From Mariniflexile gromovii (lineage in GTDB: Bacteria > Bacteroidota > Bacteroidia > Flavobacteriales > Flavobacteriaceae), in assembly GCF_017814435.1 (NCBI RefSeq), contig NZ_JAGJCB010000011.1, positions 1-64,000 of the forward strand: DNA of 64,000 nt, given 5' to 3'. Below the pieces are notes generated by a model. It made no database searches, was not told the origin of the DNA, and saw only the letters and a list, made by a program, of their open reading frames with translations. Position 1 is the stretch's first letter; each line of letters begins with the position of its first letter. Positions 12,491 to 63,037 of the stretch are shown here, piece by piece. Made by a program: the position numbers and the translations under genes.

Positions 12491-12645
12491 TTTGTTTATT
12501 TATAAGGTTTTCAATTTTATAAATAAATCAATAGTCTCATATATATAATCTCATTTAGAGGAAAATCTTAGTTTCAAGAATGAAAACTTCAAAATAGATT
12601 AGCTACGCTGAATCTTCTATTTCCAGCCTTCGCAGGAATAACAGA
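12491..12645. other. Intergenic region with a solo half copy of the CCTTCGCAGGAAT repeat
   Basis: The block around 12616-12643 (CCAGCCTTCGCAGGAATAAC) is a degenerate copy of the palindromic repeat that brackets the GIY-YIG gene at 61744. Nothing else is evident here. Confidence 0.5.
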
Positions 12646-20149: not shown

Positions 20150-21110
20150 GTAATCTTACTGGAATACAAGCCTGAGAAGACCTTGAAATGAATTCAGGGT
20201 GACATGTCTGAGTGGATAAGGGTGACAATATGTGATTGATTTGTATTGCAAAACCCGAACCCTTGTCCTGTTGAACTTGTTTCGGAATCTAGTTGATTTA
20301 GAACTTTGTTTTCATAAGGTGTAGATTCCGAAACAAGTTTGGAATGACAAATGAGAGGATGTTTGGAATGATTAAAGTAAATTGCTTTGTCTTGCTGAAT
20401 TTATACCAGCATCTAGTTGATTTAGAACTTTGATTTCATAAGGTGTAGATTCCGAAACAAGTTCGGAATAACAAAAGAGAGCTTGTTTTGAATGACAAAA
20501 GTAAATTGATTTGTCATGCTGAGTTTATTTCAGCATCTAGTTGATTTAGAACTTTGTTTACATAAGATGTAGATTCCTAAACAAGTTCGGAATAACAAAA
20601 GAGAGCTTGTTTGGAATGACAAAAGTAAATTGATTTATCATGCTGAATGTATTTCAGCATCTAGTTGATTTAGAACTTTGGTTTCATAAGGTGTAGATTC
20701 CGAAACAAGTTCGGAATGACAAAAGAGAGCGTGTTTGGAATGACAAAAGTAAATTGATTTGTCATGCTGAATGTATTTCAGCATCTAGTTTATTTAGAAC
20801 TTTGGTTTCACAAGATGTAGATTCCGAAACAAGTTCGGAATGACAAAAGAGAGCGTGTTTGGAATGACAAAAGTAAATTGATTTGTCATGCTGAATTTAT
20901 TTCAGCATCTAATTTGGGGTTATCAGAGATTTTGAAATACAGACCAAAACCCTGAAATACTGAAACAAGTTCAGCACCAGCAAGTTCAGGGTGACAAATA
21001 TCTTAGTGTAAGACCCTGAAACAAGTTCAGGGTGACAAGTCCGAAGGGACAAGGGTGACAAGTTTATAGGGATAAGGGTGACAAGTTTAAGGGCTTCAGG
21101 ATGACAAAAA
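20150..21110. repeat. Repeat-rich gap with 124-bp tandem array and GTTCAGGGTGACA hairpins
   Basis: No gene lies in this 960-bp gap. Its core is a tandem array (annotated separately). On each side are shorter copies of the palindromic unit TGAAACAAGTTCAGGGTGAC and of its truncated form GATAAGGGTGACAAG. Several copies can fold because TGAA pairs with TTCA around ACAAG. The same unit recurs at 22742-22850, beyond the two small unknown genes, in the same orientation. Confidence 0.75.
20291..20910 (+). repeat. Five tandem copies of a 124-bp unit
   Basis: The marker AGTTGATTTAG (AGTTTATTTAG in the last unit) starts at 20291, 20415, 20539, 20663 and 20787, exactly 124 bases apart, and the last unit ends at 20910. 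Each unit holds two potential hairpins. One is ATTCCGAA-ACAAG-TTCGGAAT, with small changes between copies. The other is ATGCTGAA-TTTAT-TTCAGCAT, which is weaker in the first copy. Only scattered substitutions separate the units by eye. It is not a CRISPR array because there is no alternation of constant repeat and variable spacer. Confidence 0.85.
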
Positions 21111-21901: not shown

Positions 21902-22494
21902 GATTTGGGGGTTTTATGTTCCGTAATTTTTTAGGAACTGGTTTAGGCTTTACTACCGCTTTGGTAGTTTTCATAAGTTAAACATACTGAGTTTTTTCTT
22001 TTCATGTTTTTTGATATGGCTTTAAACTGTCTTTTTTTCGTAAATAAGTCTTTTTGGTTTTTTTGTAGGTTTTTTAGCGGTTTTTTCTGTTTTTTTAACA
22101 ATTTGTAGGTTTGTGCATTATTCTTGTGGACATGCCTCATCTATACTTTAGCTATACATGAGCTATATGGGTGTTGTTTAGTAGTTGAGTTGTTTAGTTG
22201 CTTGTGTTTATTGGTTTTGAGTGGATCACTTGCCTTCGCAGGGATAATAAAAAAGGGTGCATGATGAATATTAGTTTAGTTGTTTCGTTGATTGTTGTTT
22301 CGTTGATTGTTGTTTCGTTGGTTGGCTTGTGTTTTGCTATTTTTTACTCACAATAATTGTTTTTTTGTATTAAAAATTATATTATTATTGTAAAGTGATA
22401 TATATGCGTTTGTAGGTTATTGAATTGTATGTAACCCTCTTCTAATTTAATATACCTCTTCTGTTTAGTGTATTGTTTAATCATTATTTGTTTT
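21902..22494. other. Intergenic region between two small unknown genes
   Basis: A 593-bp stretch with no convincing gene. It holds a Lys-rich 65-codon open frame (21943-22140, minus) that I consider unlikely to be real. It also has a degenerate solo copy of the GCCTTCGCAGG repeat near 22230-22246 and three tandem copies of a 15-base unit, GTTGTTTCGTTGATT, near 22277-22320. Confidence 0.55.
22277..22320 (+). repeat. 15-bp tandem repeat, about three copies
   Basis: The unit GTTGTTTCGTTGATT is repeated about three times with the last copy ending GTTGG. It lies in the gap before the 67-aa gene and has no coding role. Confidence 0.7.
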
Positions 22495-60666: not shown

Positions 60667-61542
60667 ATGGCTTCAGGATTTTTTGCCCTATTAGATGATA
60701 TTGCTGCACTTATGGACGATGTTGTAGTAATGAGTAAAATTACAACTAAAAAAACAGCAGGTATTTTAGGAGACGATTTAGCAGTGAATGCCGAAAAAGC
60801 CACTGGTTTTGTATCGTCAAGAGAATTGCCTGTTTTGTGGGCCATTACTAAAGGTTCTTTTTTGAATAAGCTTATTATTTTACCTATAGCTTTTTTGCTC
60901 AGTTACTTTTTGCCTTGGGCAGTAACCGTTATTTTGGTGTTAGGTGGGGTTTATTTAGCGTATGAAGGTGTTGAGAAAATAATAGAATATTTTGTGCCTC
61001 ACAACCATGAAGTAACAAAAATTGAAGCGGTTAATCCATCAGAGGAAGATGTTTTATTGGTTGAAAAAAAGAAGATAAAATCGGCTGTTGTTACCGATTT
61101 TATTTTATCGGTTGAAATTGTAATTATAGCACTTGGTTCGGTTGTTGATCAAACGCTTATTACCCAAATATTGGTGGTTTCTATAGTTGCTATTATTGCA
61201 ACGGTTGGTGTTTATGGTATTGTGGCGCTTATTGTAAGAATGGACGATTTAGGTTTCAGACTCATCAAAAAAAGTGACAACGGTAAAGTTTTTTTAGCCA
61301 ATATTGGGAACCTTTTAGTTAAAGCATTGCCCTTGGTTATTAAAGGTTTATCAATTGTAGGAACTATAGCGCTTATTTTAGTTGCTGGTGGCATATTTAC
61401 CCATAATATTGAATTTCTTCATCATTTCATAGAAGCAATTCCAAGCTTTATAAAAGATTTTATTGTTGGATTGTTAGTTGGATTTGCAGCATTTCTAGTT
61501 GTTTTAGCGGTTAAGAAGCTTATTAAGGTTTTTAAGAACTAA
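60667..61542 (+). CDS. DUF808 family inner-membrane protein, YedI-like
   Basis: The 291-aa product starts MASGFFALLDDIAALMDDVVVMSKITTKKTAGILGDDLAVNA, the DUF808/YedI hallmark. It has about six hydrophobic segments between 70 and 290, with a charged loop (EAVNPSEEDVLLVEKKKIKSAVV) in the middle. Function is unknown in all species as far as I recall. It shares a transcript with pssA. No terminator was found; repeats begin about 60 bases later. Confidence 0.9.
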   Translation: MASGFFALLDDIAALMDDVVVMSKITTKKTAGILGDDLAVNAEKATGFVSSRELPVLWAITKGSFLNKLIILPIAFLLSYFLPWAVTVILVLGGVYLAYEGVEKIIEYFVPHNHEVTKIEAVNPSEEDVLLVEKKKIKSAVVTDFILSVEIVIIALGSVVDQTLITQILVVSIVAIIATVGVYGIVALIVRMDDLGFRLIKKSDNGKVFLANIGNLLVKALPLVIKGLSIVGTIALILVAGGIFTHNIEFLHHFIEAIPSFIKDFIVGLLVGFAAFLVVLAVKKLIKVFKN

Positions 61543-61601
61543 CTATTGGTTCTTGCTGTGAATGATTTATGTTTAGTTTAGTAGAAGAATAAGCTTTGGA
61601 G

Positions 61602-61630
61602 TTGTCATTCCTGCGAAAGCAGGAATCCAC
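61602..61630 (+). repeat. Solo copy of the GTCATTCCTGCGAAnGCAGG repeat
   Basis: A palindromic copy in the same orientation as the left inverted repeat at 61699, with GAAA instead of GAAG in the loop. It lies about 70 bases outside the GIY-YIG unit. Confidence 0.85.
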
Positions 61631-61698
61631 ATTAAAGGTGTTTAGATTAAAACTTTTAAATTGAAATAACCTTATTATTTTAAAAATCGGTCTTCGGT

Positions 61699-62084
61699 TT
61701 TGTCATTCCTGCGAAGGCAGGAATCCACTAGATAAACGCACATATGTATAAAACGATTCATCAATACTACCTTTACATTATTACCAATAAAACAAATGGT
61801 ACAATTTATATTGGTGTTACAAACAATTTAGAACGCAGAATGTTTGAACATAAAAATAAACTAATAGAAGGCTTTACCAAACAATATGGATTATATAAAT
61901 TAGTTTATTTTGAAACCTATCAATACGTGAATGATGCCATTAAAATAGAAAAGAATATGAAGAAATGGAAACGACAATGGAAAATTGACTTGATAGAAAA
62001 GGATAATCCAAATTGGAAAGATTTGTCTAAGGATTGGACTTTTCTAATAGAGTAGTGGATTCCTGCCTTCGCAGGAATGACAAA
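61699..62084. mobile_element. Putative GIY-YIG unit bracketed by 32-bp perfect inverted repeats
   Basis: The left end, 61699-61730, reads TTTGTCATTCCTGCGAAGGC and on to CCACTA. The right end, 62053-62084, is its perfect reverse complement over all 32 bases. Each end is itself a hairpin: ATTCCTGC and GCAGGAAT around a four-base loop. The GIY-YIG ATG is 13 bases after the left end, and its stop codon TAG is formed by the first three bases of the right end. The whole unit is 386 bp. No clear target duplication was seen outside it. Confidence 0.7.
61744..62055 (+). CDS. GIY-YIG nuclease family protein
   Basis: The 103-aa product has the GIY-YIG fold in short form: YYLYIITN (8-15, the GIY position), TIYIGVTNNLERRMFEH (20-36 with Tyr and Arg), and the presumed catalytic Glu E69 in AIKIEKNMKKWKR. 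It resembles the UPF0213/YhbQ group, in which DNA cleavage has been suggested. No signal or membrane part. It has no visible promoter of its own. It is exactly enclosed by inverted repeats, with further copies of the repeat nearby and elsewhere in the window. A role in moving or copying those repeats is therefore suspected but not shown. Confidence 0.88.
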   Translation: MYKTIHQYYLYIITNKTNGTIYIGVTNNLERRMFEHKNKLIEGFTKQYGLYKLVYFETYQYVNDAIKIEKNMKKWKRQWKIDLIEKDNPNWKDLSKDWTFLIE

Positions 62085-62296
62085 GAAGATGTGTAGTACT
62101 ATGAAGATTGTTTCAATAAATTTGATGATTGAAAATCAGTCAGAAATATAAATCTACGCTTTCGCAGGAATGACAAAACGTATAGTGCTATGCAGATTGT
62201 TTCAATAAATGTGATGATAGAATATCAGAAACATATACTTATGCTTTCGCAGTAATGACAAACAAAGCGTATAATCACTCCAATGGCACTTAGTGC
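62085..62296. repeat. Degenerate half copies of the GIY-YIG-associated repeat
   Basis: Two half copies (GCTTTCGCAGGAATGACAAA near 62158-62178 and GCTTTCGCAGTAATGACAAA near 62243-62263) lie outside the right end, spaced about 85 bases apart. They share short flanks such as TGCAGATTGTTTCAATAAAT, so they may be old duplicated ends. No gene. Confidence 0.7.
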
Positions 62297-63037
62297 CTAG
62301 TCCCTAATTTTCTTCTTACGCAACTCAAAATTCTGACCTAAATACACTTTACGTACCATTTCGTCATTAGCCAATTCTTCAGGTTCTCCGGCTTTAAGAA
62401 TGCTACCTTCAAACATTAAATAAGTTCTATCGGTAATGGCAAGTGTTTCCTGTACGTTGTGGTCTGTAATTAAAATACCAATATTTTTTTTGGTAAGTTG
62501 TGCCACAATACGCTGAATATCCTCAACAGCAACAGGGTCAACCCCAGCAAAAGGTTCATCCAATAAAATAAAACTTGGGTCCGTTGCCAAAGCACGTGCA
62601 ATTTCGGTACGTCTACGTTCACCACCAGATAATAAATCGCCTCTACTTTTGCGAATATGTCCCAAGCCGAATTCCTCAATAAGCGATTCCATTTTAAAAT
62701 GTTGCTCTTTTTTACTTAGCTTGGTAAGTTGTAAAACGCTTAAAATATTATCTTCAATACTCAATTTTCTAAAAACTGAAGCTTCTTGAGCCAAATAGCC
62801 AATACCATTTTGTGCGCGTTTGTACATGGGGTATTGTGTAATTTCGGTGTTATCTAAAAAAATATGACCGCTATTAGGTTTAATTAAGCCTACCGTCATG
62901 TAGAAAGACGTGGTTTTACCAGCACCATTAGGTCCTAAAAGTCCAACAATTTCGCCTTGTTCAACTTGTAAAGACACATCCTTTACCACTTTTCGTCCGC
63001 TATAGGACTTCATTAAATTTTGAGCTCTTAAAATCAT
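62297..63037 (-). CDS. lptB: LPS export ABC transporter ATPase LptB
   Basis: ATPase that drives lipopolysaccharide from the inner membrane through the Lpt bridge. The 246-aa product has Walker [10 protein letters not shown] (35-43), [15 protein letters not shown] (the Q-loop of LptB), signature LLSGGERRR (135-143), Walker [14 protein letters not shown] (156-168) and [10 protein letters not shown]. These are the LptB hallmarks. It lies downstream of tatC and the AhpD-like gene on the same strand, a gene order I recall from several flavobacteria. The 74-base gap before it may hold a promoter, but no exact TAnnTTTG was seen. Confidence 0.96.

Follow-up and report, generated by a model that had tools for sequence, protein, structure and literature searches.

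The window analysed here is a 64,000-nt stretch of the Mariniflexile gromovii genome (assembly GCF_017814435.1, contig NZ_JAGJCB010000011.1, positions 1-64,000 of the forward strand). In it, a short open reading frame (ORF) for a GIY-YIG protein lies between two arms that, by self-comparison of the sequence, are exact reverse complements over 32 nt (Table 1). The reading frame begins 13 nt inward of the left arm and ends at a TAG formed by the opening three bases of the right arm. Each arm contains an 8-bp hairpin, and shuffled versions fold as well in only 0 of 200 and 1 of 200 cases. The original prediction, which had described perfect 32-bp inverted repeats around a GIY-YIG ORF, a start codon 13 bases inside one arm, a stop codon built from the other and a hairpin at each end, was therefore correct on the architecture. 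A chance inverted repeat was considered as an explanation of the arms and rejected. An assembly artefact was also rejected as unlikely, because paralogues and homologues show such ends.

Table 1. Features of the window element and end types of the stand-alone GIY-YIG genes in the same genome
Feature	Positions	Strand	Description
Left terminal CGTC-type REP	61699..61730	+	Exact inverted copy at 62053-62084; outer TTT; tag GTC 61702-61704; stem 61705-61712 / 61717-61724; loop GAAG; tail CCACTA
Predicted GIY-YIG nuclease ORF	61744..62055	+	103 aa, minimal single-domain protein; PF01541 E 1.1e-16
Right terminal REP, inverted	62053..62084	-	Stem 62059-62066 / 62071-62078; tag, on the minus strand, 62079-62081
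Upstream extra copy of the window REP	61602..61630	+	Oriented as the left end; 97% to the right arm
Decayed half-REP downstream	62158..62177	-	Within an 89-bp tandem unit
Second decayed half-REP downstream	62242..62262	-	
Core match to the window REP	22229..22242	-	1 mismatch
Core match to the window REP	12623..12636	-	1 mismatch
Window gene			Type A ends
Paralogue L002			Type B ends: GTCATTCCGAACTTGTTTCGGAATCT and variants
Paralogue L003			A-like pair without GTC tag
Paralogue L005			Type D ends: GTCACACTGAGCGCAGTCGAAGTGC, 35 nt, 97%
Paralogue L004	G000:C24:1917-2825		In-frame stop; array of type-C pairs, GTCATTTCGACG..AGGAGAAATC facing GTCATGTCGAAATGAGGC..

A neighbour of the unit is an ORF for an ABC-transporter ATPase (named by eye). 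Allowing up to 2 mismatches, the 14-nt core of the window repeat is matched at 5 places in the window, against an expectation of 0.06. An Rfam search of positions 61400-62350 gave two matches, both to one family, with scores of 26.7 and 21.2 bits where the gathering score is 66. Directly downstream of the element, positions 62064-62273 consist of 89-bp tandem units, each opening with half of a hairpin of the window type (type A); they are a decayed local duplication at the right end of the element. Elsewhere in the window, positions 20263-20911 hold 5.2 tandem copies of a 124-bp unit, each with an inverted pair of type-B hairpins, the type of paralogue L002; this array is a local amplification of a REPIN-like unit.

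The window protein is assigned to the GIY-YIG superfamily by domain match and by fold, from which nuclease activity is predicted. Only PF01541 and T5orf172 were matched in the profile search; against TIGR01453, the profile used to judge membership among group I intron and homing endonucleases, it scored 29.9 bits, below the curated cut-off of 56.05. Y11, Y22, R32, H36, E69 and N88 are invariant in an alignment of 27 sequences, from which rows with in-frame stops were left out, and by analogy with other GIY-YIG enzymes the catalytic Tyr, Arg, Glu and Asn are among these positions. With a length of about 100 aa, the protein is hardly more than a catalytic domain. The best fold match to its structure model (pLDDT 90.5) is UPF0213 1zg2 (E 4e-4), the only match under 0.001 and the closest solved relative also by sequence profile. 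It is followed by Slx1 in Slx1-Slx4 (E 0.03), and the folds after 1zg2 are mostly Slx1-Slx4, at E 0.03 and weaker. Slx1 works with Slx4 in repair. UPF0213 and Slx1 are the closest solved relatives of the window protein; those structures do not establish a function of UPF0213. Since the nearest folds include the branched-DNA nuclease Slx1, recognition of a hairpin or cruciform by the window protein is plausible from the model.

The type-A repeat at the ends of the gene has the form TGTC-ATTCCTGC-GAAG-GCAGGAAT-CCA, with a TGTC tag, an 8-bp stem, a 4-nt loop and a CCA tail. In the 4.28-Mb genome, a 24-nt version has 50 matches at up to 3 mismatches (reversed control, 0), and several copies form inverted pairs about 25 nt apart. 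In the accessible text of Di Nocera et al. 2013 (PMC3733652), CGTC-tagged REPs are described with a CGTC or TGTC tag (unpaired variants CGTC, or TGTC/CCTC), a stem of 8-9 bp starting AT, a loop of 4-5 and a CCA tail, occurring mostly as head-to-head dimers in five phyla. Four families are set up there, Neisseria dRS3 and Rickettsia RPE-4/RPE-6 are counted in the class, and no transposase is reported in association with it. Judged by its letters, type A fits this description directly in tag, stem, loop, tail, copy number and inverted dimers. The copy-number trait holds for type A with its 50 copies, but two further types found at paralogues are scarcer, with 5 copies of C and 8 of D. The four CGTC families may not cover types B, C and D or the repeat GTCATTGCGAGCG...CGAAGCAATCCAG. 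Unlike the 2013 description in the text accessible to us, in which no transposase appears, GIY-YIG enzyme genes lie between these CGTC-type repeats; the absence of an enzyme is a negative finding of that paper, not a defining trait of the class. The repeat was already known; its partner enzyme was not. The accessible text of a 2025 survey of REPs (PMC12306157) contains no word beginning "transpos", "nuclease" or "RAYT", and "CGTC" stands there only in the reference list.

The association between gene and hairpins extends far beyond the window. We collected 125 loci: 5 from the own genome, 29 from family genomes, 11 from plasmid records (of 34 records matched) and 80 from genome contigs, the last being the best 80 of at least 566 confirmed relatives. 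The contig search was seeded with six proteins, four with hairpin flanks and two (L071 and L073) without. Viral contigs were searched for relatives as well, and none of 22 pattern matches there was confirmed. Five loci were dropped for short flanks, which left 120. The 200 nt upstream of each gene were locally aligned with the reverse complement of the downstream stretch, and a score of at least 18 was taken as an inverted flanking repeat. Such repeats flank 90 of the 120 homologues, in many phyla (own genome 5/5, family genomes 22/28, plasmids 9/11, contigs 54/76); the other 30 miss the threshold. By record titles, the hosts of scoring loci include alpha-, beta-, gamma- and 'delta'-proteobacteria, Nitrospirae, Planctomycetes, Anaerolineae, Rifleibacterium, Ignavibacteria, Omnitrophota, Bacteroidota and a cyanobacterium. 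The same score was reached by 51 of 722 shifted intervals and by 7 of 151 other genes in the same loci (odds ratio 62, P 2e-36, a P value that is too small because the loci are partly non-independent, several sharing a site, as four Pseudomonas loci do). Flanks mispaired from different loci reached it in 402 of 1500 cases, because many phyla share the GTCATTCCCGCG..CGGGAATCCAG repeat type.

The hairpin tag gives a stronger test. We counted hairpins with a stem of at least 7 (one mismatch allowed) and a tag directly before it, near the genes (within 170 nt) and far from them (beyond 600 nt). GTC-tagged hairpins occur at 4.97 per kb near and 0.31 per kb far, a 16-fold enrichment, whereas the control tags CTG, GAC and CAG occur at 0.21, 0.26 and 0.38 per kb near and 0.20, 0.20 and 0.25 per kb far, at most 1.5-fold, with hairpin stability not matched between tags. 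By both measures, then, such ends are much commoner near GIY-YIG genes than elsewhere. In the 63 loci with GTC hairpins on both sides, the nearest pair is symmetrically inverted in 52 (tags outward in 42, inward in 10; binomial P 1.7e-7) and direct in 11. The inverted score and the presence of a tagged hairpin within 250 nt coincide at 70 of the 120 genes; at 20 genes there is just the score, at 22 just the hairpin (some of these by chance) and at 8 neither; one of the last is L073 of Rhizobium tumorigenes, a gene without a hairpin. In-frame stops interrupt the matched stretch in 9 of the 125 copies, as expected for decaying elements.

These comparisons bear on a more ordinary reading, in which a short gene simply has a transcription terminator or mRNA stem-loop at either end. 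REPs are intergenic, and hairpins at both ends could insulate a small gene; many REPs are plausibly transcribed, according to the accessible text of Di Nocera et al. (PMC3733652). Terminators, however, would leave unexplained why GTC alone among the four tags is strongly enriched (in the comparison not matched for stability), why the pattern is so seldom found at other genes of the same loci and why the two ends are copies of each other, with a sequence that follows the protein subfamily. We consider this explanation hardly credible.

The genome itself contains five stand-alone GIY-YIG genes, and a PF01541 search finds the same five plus four long proteins. Four of the five sit between their own inverted repeats, of types A, A-like, B and D, that is, at least three types. 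In the fifth, L004, the nearest type-C copies on both sides are in direct orientation, and the inverted score is only 19. The L004 array itself consists of tandem, inverted type-C pairs, with the gene between two forward copies. At up to 3 mismatches the genome holds 54 copies of type B, 5 of type C and 8 of type D, and all reversed controls gave 0. The only two exact copies of type D are the two ends of its gene, and 4 of the 5 type-C copies lie around the type-C gene, which indicates that repeats can belong to a gene without a large resident family. The type-D end makes a poor simple hairpin, as 117 of 200 shuffles fold as well. As a control we scored the four long GIY-YIG genes of the genome; the three measurable flanks gave 19, 11 and 15, and the fourth ran off the locus. 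The 19 is a diffuse AT-rich alignment without a hairpin, and since a control reached this value, a score near 18 is weak by itself in AT-rich genomes, and the tag test is the stronger one.

We then asked whether each gene is matched to its own repeat. Among 64 paralogues in 18 genomes (the own five and those of 60 further stretches, less one stretch that had two matches), the ends of one and the same gene have a median score of 21.5 and reach 18 in 52 of 64 cases. When upstream and downstream ends of different paralogues within a genome are compared, the median is 13, with 32 of 194 at 18 or more. The own end is unbeaten in 47 of the 52 genes that reach 18, and the observed sum was reached in none of 5000 within-genome permutations. 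Between genomes, we used the 65 of 80 loci with an inverted score of at least 18. The two members of a protein pair have a common repeat in 129 of 176 pairs at 65% identity or more, 127 of 536 at 50-65%, 104 of 1131 at 40-50%, 11 of 165 at 30-40% and 0 of 3 below 30% (Mantel rank r 0.33, reached in 0 of 2000 permutations). Paralogues of the same genome at 40-50% identity share a repeat in only 2 of 39 cases. By these sequence comparisons, the repeat type goes with the protein subfamily and not with the host.

Type-A repeats (up to 2 mismatches) are present in all 14 family genomes with a close relative of the window protein (above 140 bits), at a median of 7.5 copies. Where a family genome has only other homologues, 44 of 94 carry the repeat; where it has no homologue at all, 10 of 41 do. 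Across 149 family genomes, GIY-YIG matches number up to 17 per genome, and 41 genomes have none. In the genome with 17 matches (G147), three lie within 7 kb, and another genome carries four GIY-YIG genes within about 6 kb (G074:C1:1187326-1193555). One genome, G075, has 27 type-A copies and no GIY-YIG match at E<=1e-3, at an assembly completeness of 94%.

Empty sites were found in several lineages. For the window gene, 3 of 5 congeners have one: the neighbouring parts, 755 bp apart in the own genome, lie 30, 101 and 118 bp apart in G149, G150 and G152, and these empty stretches contain neither a type-A repeat nor a GTC-tagged hairpin. In the other two congeners, G151 and G118, the same parts are 2.2 kb and 36 kb apart. 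A short inverted type-A pair of the own genome (C9:75650-75728) is absent at its site in all 5 congeners; one of them carries about 1.4 kb of unrelated inserted DNA there (L269, G149:C8, after locus base 2197). In Azospirillum lipoferum, a gene with hairpins on both sides lies between sufB and sufC. The corresponding spacer of A. ramasamyi, A. oryzae and strain B510 is short and lacks both a GIY-YIG gene and GTC-tagged hairpins; the B510 spacer shows, by eye, an untagged inverted repeat. In Sphingobium, the query aligns at full length with seven plasmid records, in which the unit separates fnrL from a response regulator gene (two of the records, L074 and L253, were read). All four of the other Sphingobium plasmids were read: two carry a solo palindrome GTCAC..GTGAC at the spot of the unit, and in two the pattern detects none. 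The solo palindromes, in L249 and L250, are tagged at both ends and stand where sister plasmids carry the whole unit; each could be a deletion scar or an unoccupied target. Where occupied and empty sites were aligned, the junctions have diverged so strongly that target duplications and clean junctions are unreadable there. The Sinorhizobium hflX-mazG site was rejected as an empty site, being occupied in both strains. A search of the own genome for double-tagged solo type-A palindromes as excision scars gave a single place, with 2 mismatches and itself not double-tagged, and so no scars of that kind. The original prediction had also proposed that the 386-bp unit is a minimal, self-contained mobile element that spreads its palindrome, which is borne out in part. 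The concentration of ends at GIY-YIG genes agrees with this, as do the empty sites in congeners, Azospirillum and Sphingobium, by which the gene is not always at one syntenic place; the 386-bp unit, however, is single-copy in its own genome, and what has multiplied there is hairpins and hairpin pairs.

The main rival to a mobile unit with ends of its own is a homing-type gene, in which the nuclease would cut a solo REP palindrome and repair would copy the gene between the two halves, the REPs being spread by something else. Free-standing GIY-YIG homing endonucleases are known in phages, REPs outnumber the genes (and in G075 occur without one), and the type-C gene sits inside a tandem array of type-C pairs. 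The two Sphingobium plasmids with a solo palindrome exactly where others have REP-gene-REP would suit such a target, but the palindrome is equally explicable as a deletion scar, and the Sphingobium alleles fit either direction. Homing does not lead one to expect that the repeat type goes with protein subfamily instead of host genome, that a genome would hold only 8 type-D copies, both exact ones being the gene's own ends, or that GTC-tagged hairpins would be missing from the empty sites of three Azospirillum and three window congeners. We therefore judge homing to be unlikely.

Another possibility is a host-domesticated REP-processing enzyme, acting in cruciform or hairpin repair and kept next to REPs for regulation instead of mobility. 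Several loci are syntenic between genera (L003, L057 and L058; L054, L062 and L063; L045 and L055; L059 and L060), so that not all GIY-YIG loci are recently mobile and some units are old residents. Together with the Sinorhizobium hflX-mazG site occupied in two strains, this synteny fits stable residence. Some lineages, such as Rhizobium tumorigenes L073, keep the gene without hairpins, and the Slx1-Slx4 folds that follow 1zg2 belong to a branched-DNA repair nuclease. A core repair gene, however, would hardly vary from 17 matches per genome to none in 41 of 149, carry in-frame stops in 9 of 125 copies or have empty sites, nor would the paralogues of a host enzyme each require a repeat of their own. 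This explanation seems to us quite improbable.

What we observe directly is the architecture, its specificity, the matching of gene to repeat, the lineage-specific presence and the conserved active-site positions. Taking these together, we propose that a GIY-YIG gene and the tagged hairpins at its ends probably form one mobile system. The best reading of the sequences is a REPIN-like system that would be driven by a GIY-YIG nuclease, not by an HUH transposase (RAYT). The full unit would be [GTC-tagged hairpin - GIY-YIG gene - inverted hairpin], and the scattered single hairpins and short inverted pairs would stand to it as REPINs do to RAYTs, as non-autonomous descendants. A protein of some 95-105 aa, the nuclease would recognise its own hairpin, stem and unpaired GTC tag, in single-stranded or cruciform DNA. 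It may then cut at the tagged ends, by which the unit or a bare hairpin pair would be released or copied, and host replication and repair could join this product at a new site. Several observations count against the proposal: the repeats without a gene in G075, the direct copies at L004 and the ends without a GTC tag at L003, as well as the 30 of 120 genes below the threshold, the 8 of 120 with neither signature, the 11 of 63 direct pairs, the 402 of 1500 mispaired flanks, the poor type-D hairpin and the loci that keep their synteny between genera.

This scheme recalls the REP/REPIN-RAYT (TnpA-REP) system, in which a gene also lies between inverted tagged palindromes, with scattered single or paired copies and a gene-specific palindrome type. 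That analogy, already drawn in the original prediction, proved to be the right one, and the link between gene and hairpin is far more general than had been supposed. RAYT is an HUH tyrosine (Y1) enzyme with a GTAG tag, whereas the present system combines a GIY-YIG domain of about 100 aa with a (C/T)GTC tag; it works like a REPtron without being a member. GIY-YIG homing endonucleases (I-TevI, Seg) share the catalytic domain and the selfish spread of a nuclease gene, but they lack hairpin ends of their own and carry an extra DNA-binding region, whereas here the catalytic domain stands almost alone and the sites are diverse. We did not find one conserved target gene site; the neighbours include the suf operon, fnrL and a regulator, hflX-mazG, glycoside hydrolases and the ABC-transporter ATPase of the window. 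Penelope-like elements of eukaryotes also use a GIY-YIG nuclease, but with a reverse transcriptase and without hairpin REP ends. With the CGTC-tagged REPs as given in the accessible text of PMC3733652, the likeness extends to tag, stem length, loop, CCA tail and head-to-head dimers.

What appears new is the joining of a REP-RAYT architecture to an enzyme class of different chemistry, which a cautious reading would call a variant of REP-RAYT. We take it as new because the chemistry differs from that of RAYT and homing does not explain dispersal with own ends. Among the matches listed in a search of the open-access literature (titles, abstract starts and term counts), nothing tied GIY-YIG genes to REP, REPIN, dRS3 or CGTC repeats; bioRxiv and most subscription journals lay outside its scope, and an earlier report is possible. 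Small GIY-YIG nucleases are likely the missing partner of CGTC-tagged REPs, and if they move these widespread palindromes, the question of the mover, left open by the defining paper, would be answered, and a test would take no more than a protein of about 100 aa plus a 30-nt oligonucleotide. We also lean towards a broader view, in which stand-alone GIY-YIG nucleases would, in many phyla, serve the entire CGTC-REP superfamily as its dedicated enzymes, Neisseria dRS3 and Rickettsia RPE included. Such elements would form a class of their own: a few hundred bp long, they would consist of two tagged hairpins plus a single hydrolytic nuclease, their route of movement would resemble neither HUH nor DDE nor homing, and one genome would carry a repertoire of lock-and-key pairs of nuclease and hairpin. 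If such nucleases do move the CGTC-tagged palindromes, a second, unrelated enzyme class, convergent with RAYT, would exist in the REP world, and genes annotated only as "GIY-YIG nuclease family protein" would gain a role. It would also provide a small toolkit of nucleases in which every enzyme has a hairpin of its own. Of additional note, on a Planktothrix agardhii plasmid (L069), a GIY-YIG gene with TGTCATTCTGAGTGAAACGAAGAATCTC on both sides lies between an MmeI-type restriction-modification gene and the DISARM gene drmA.
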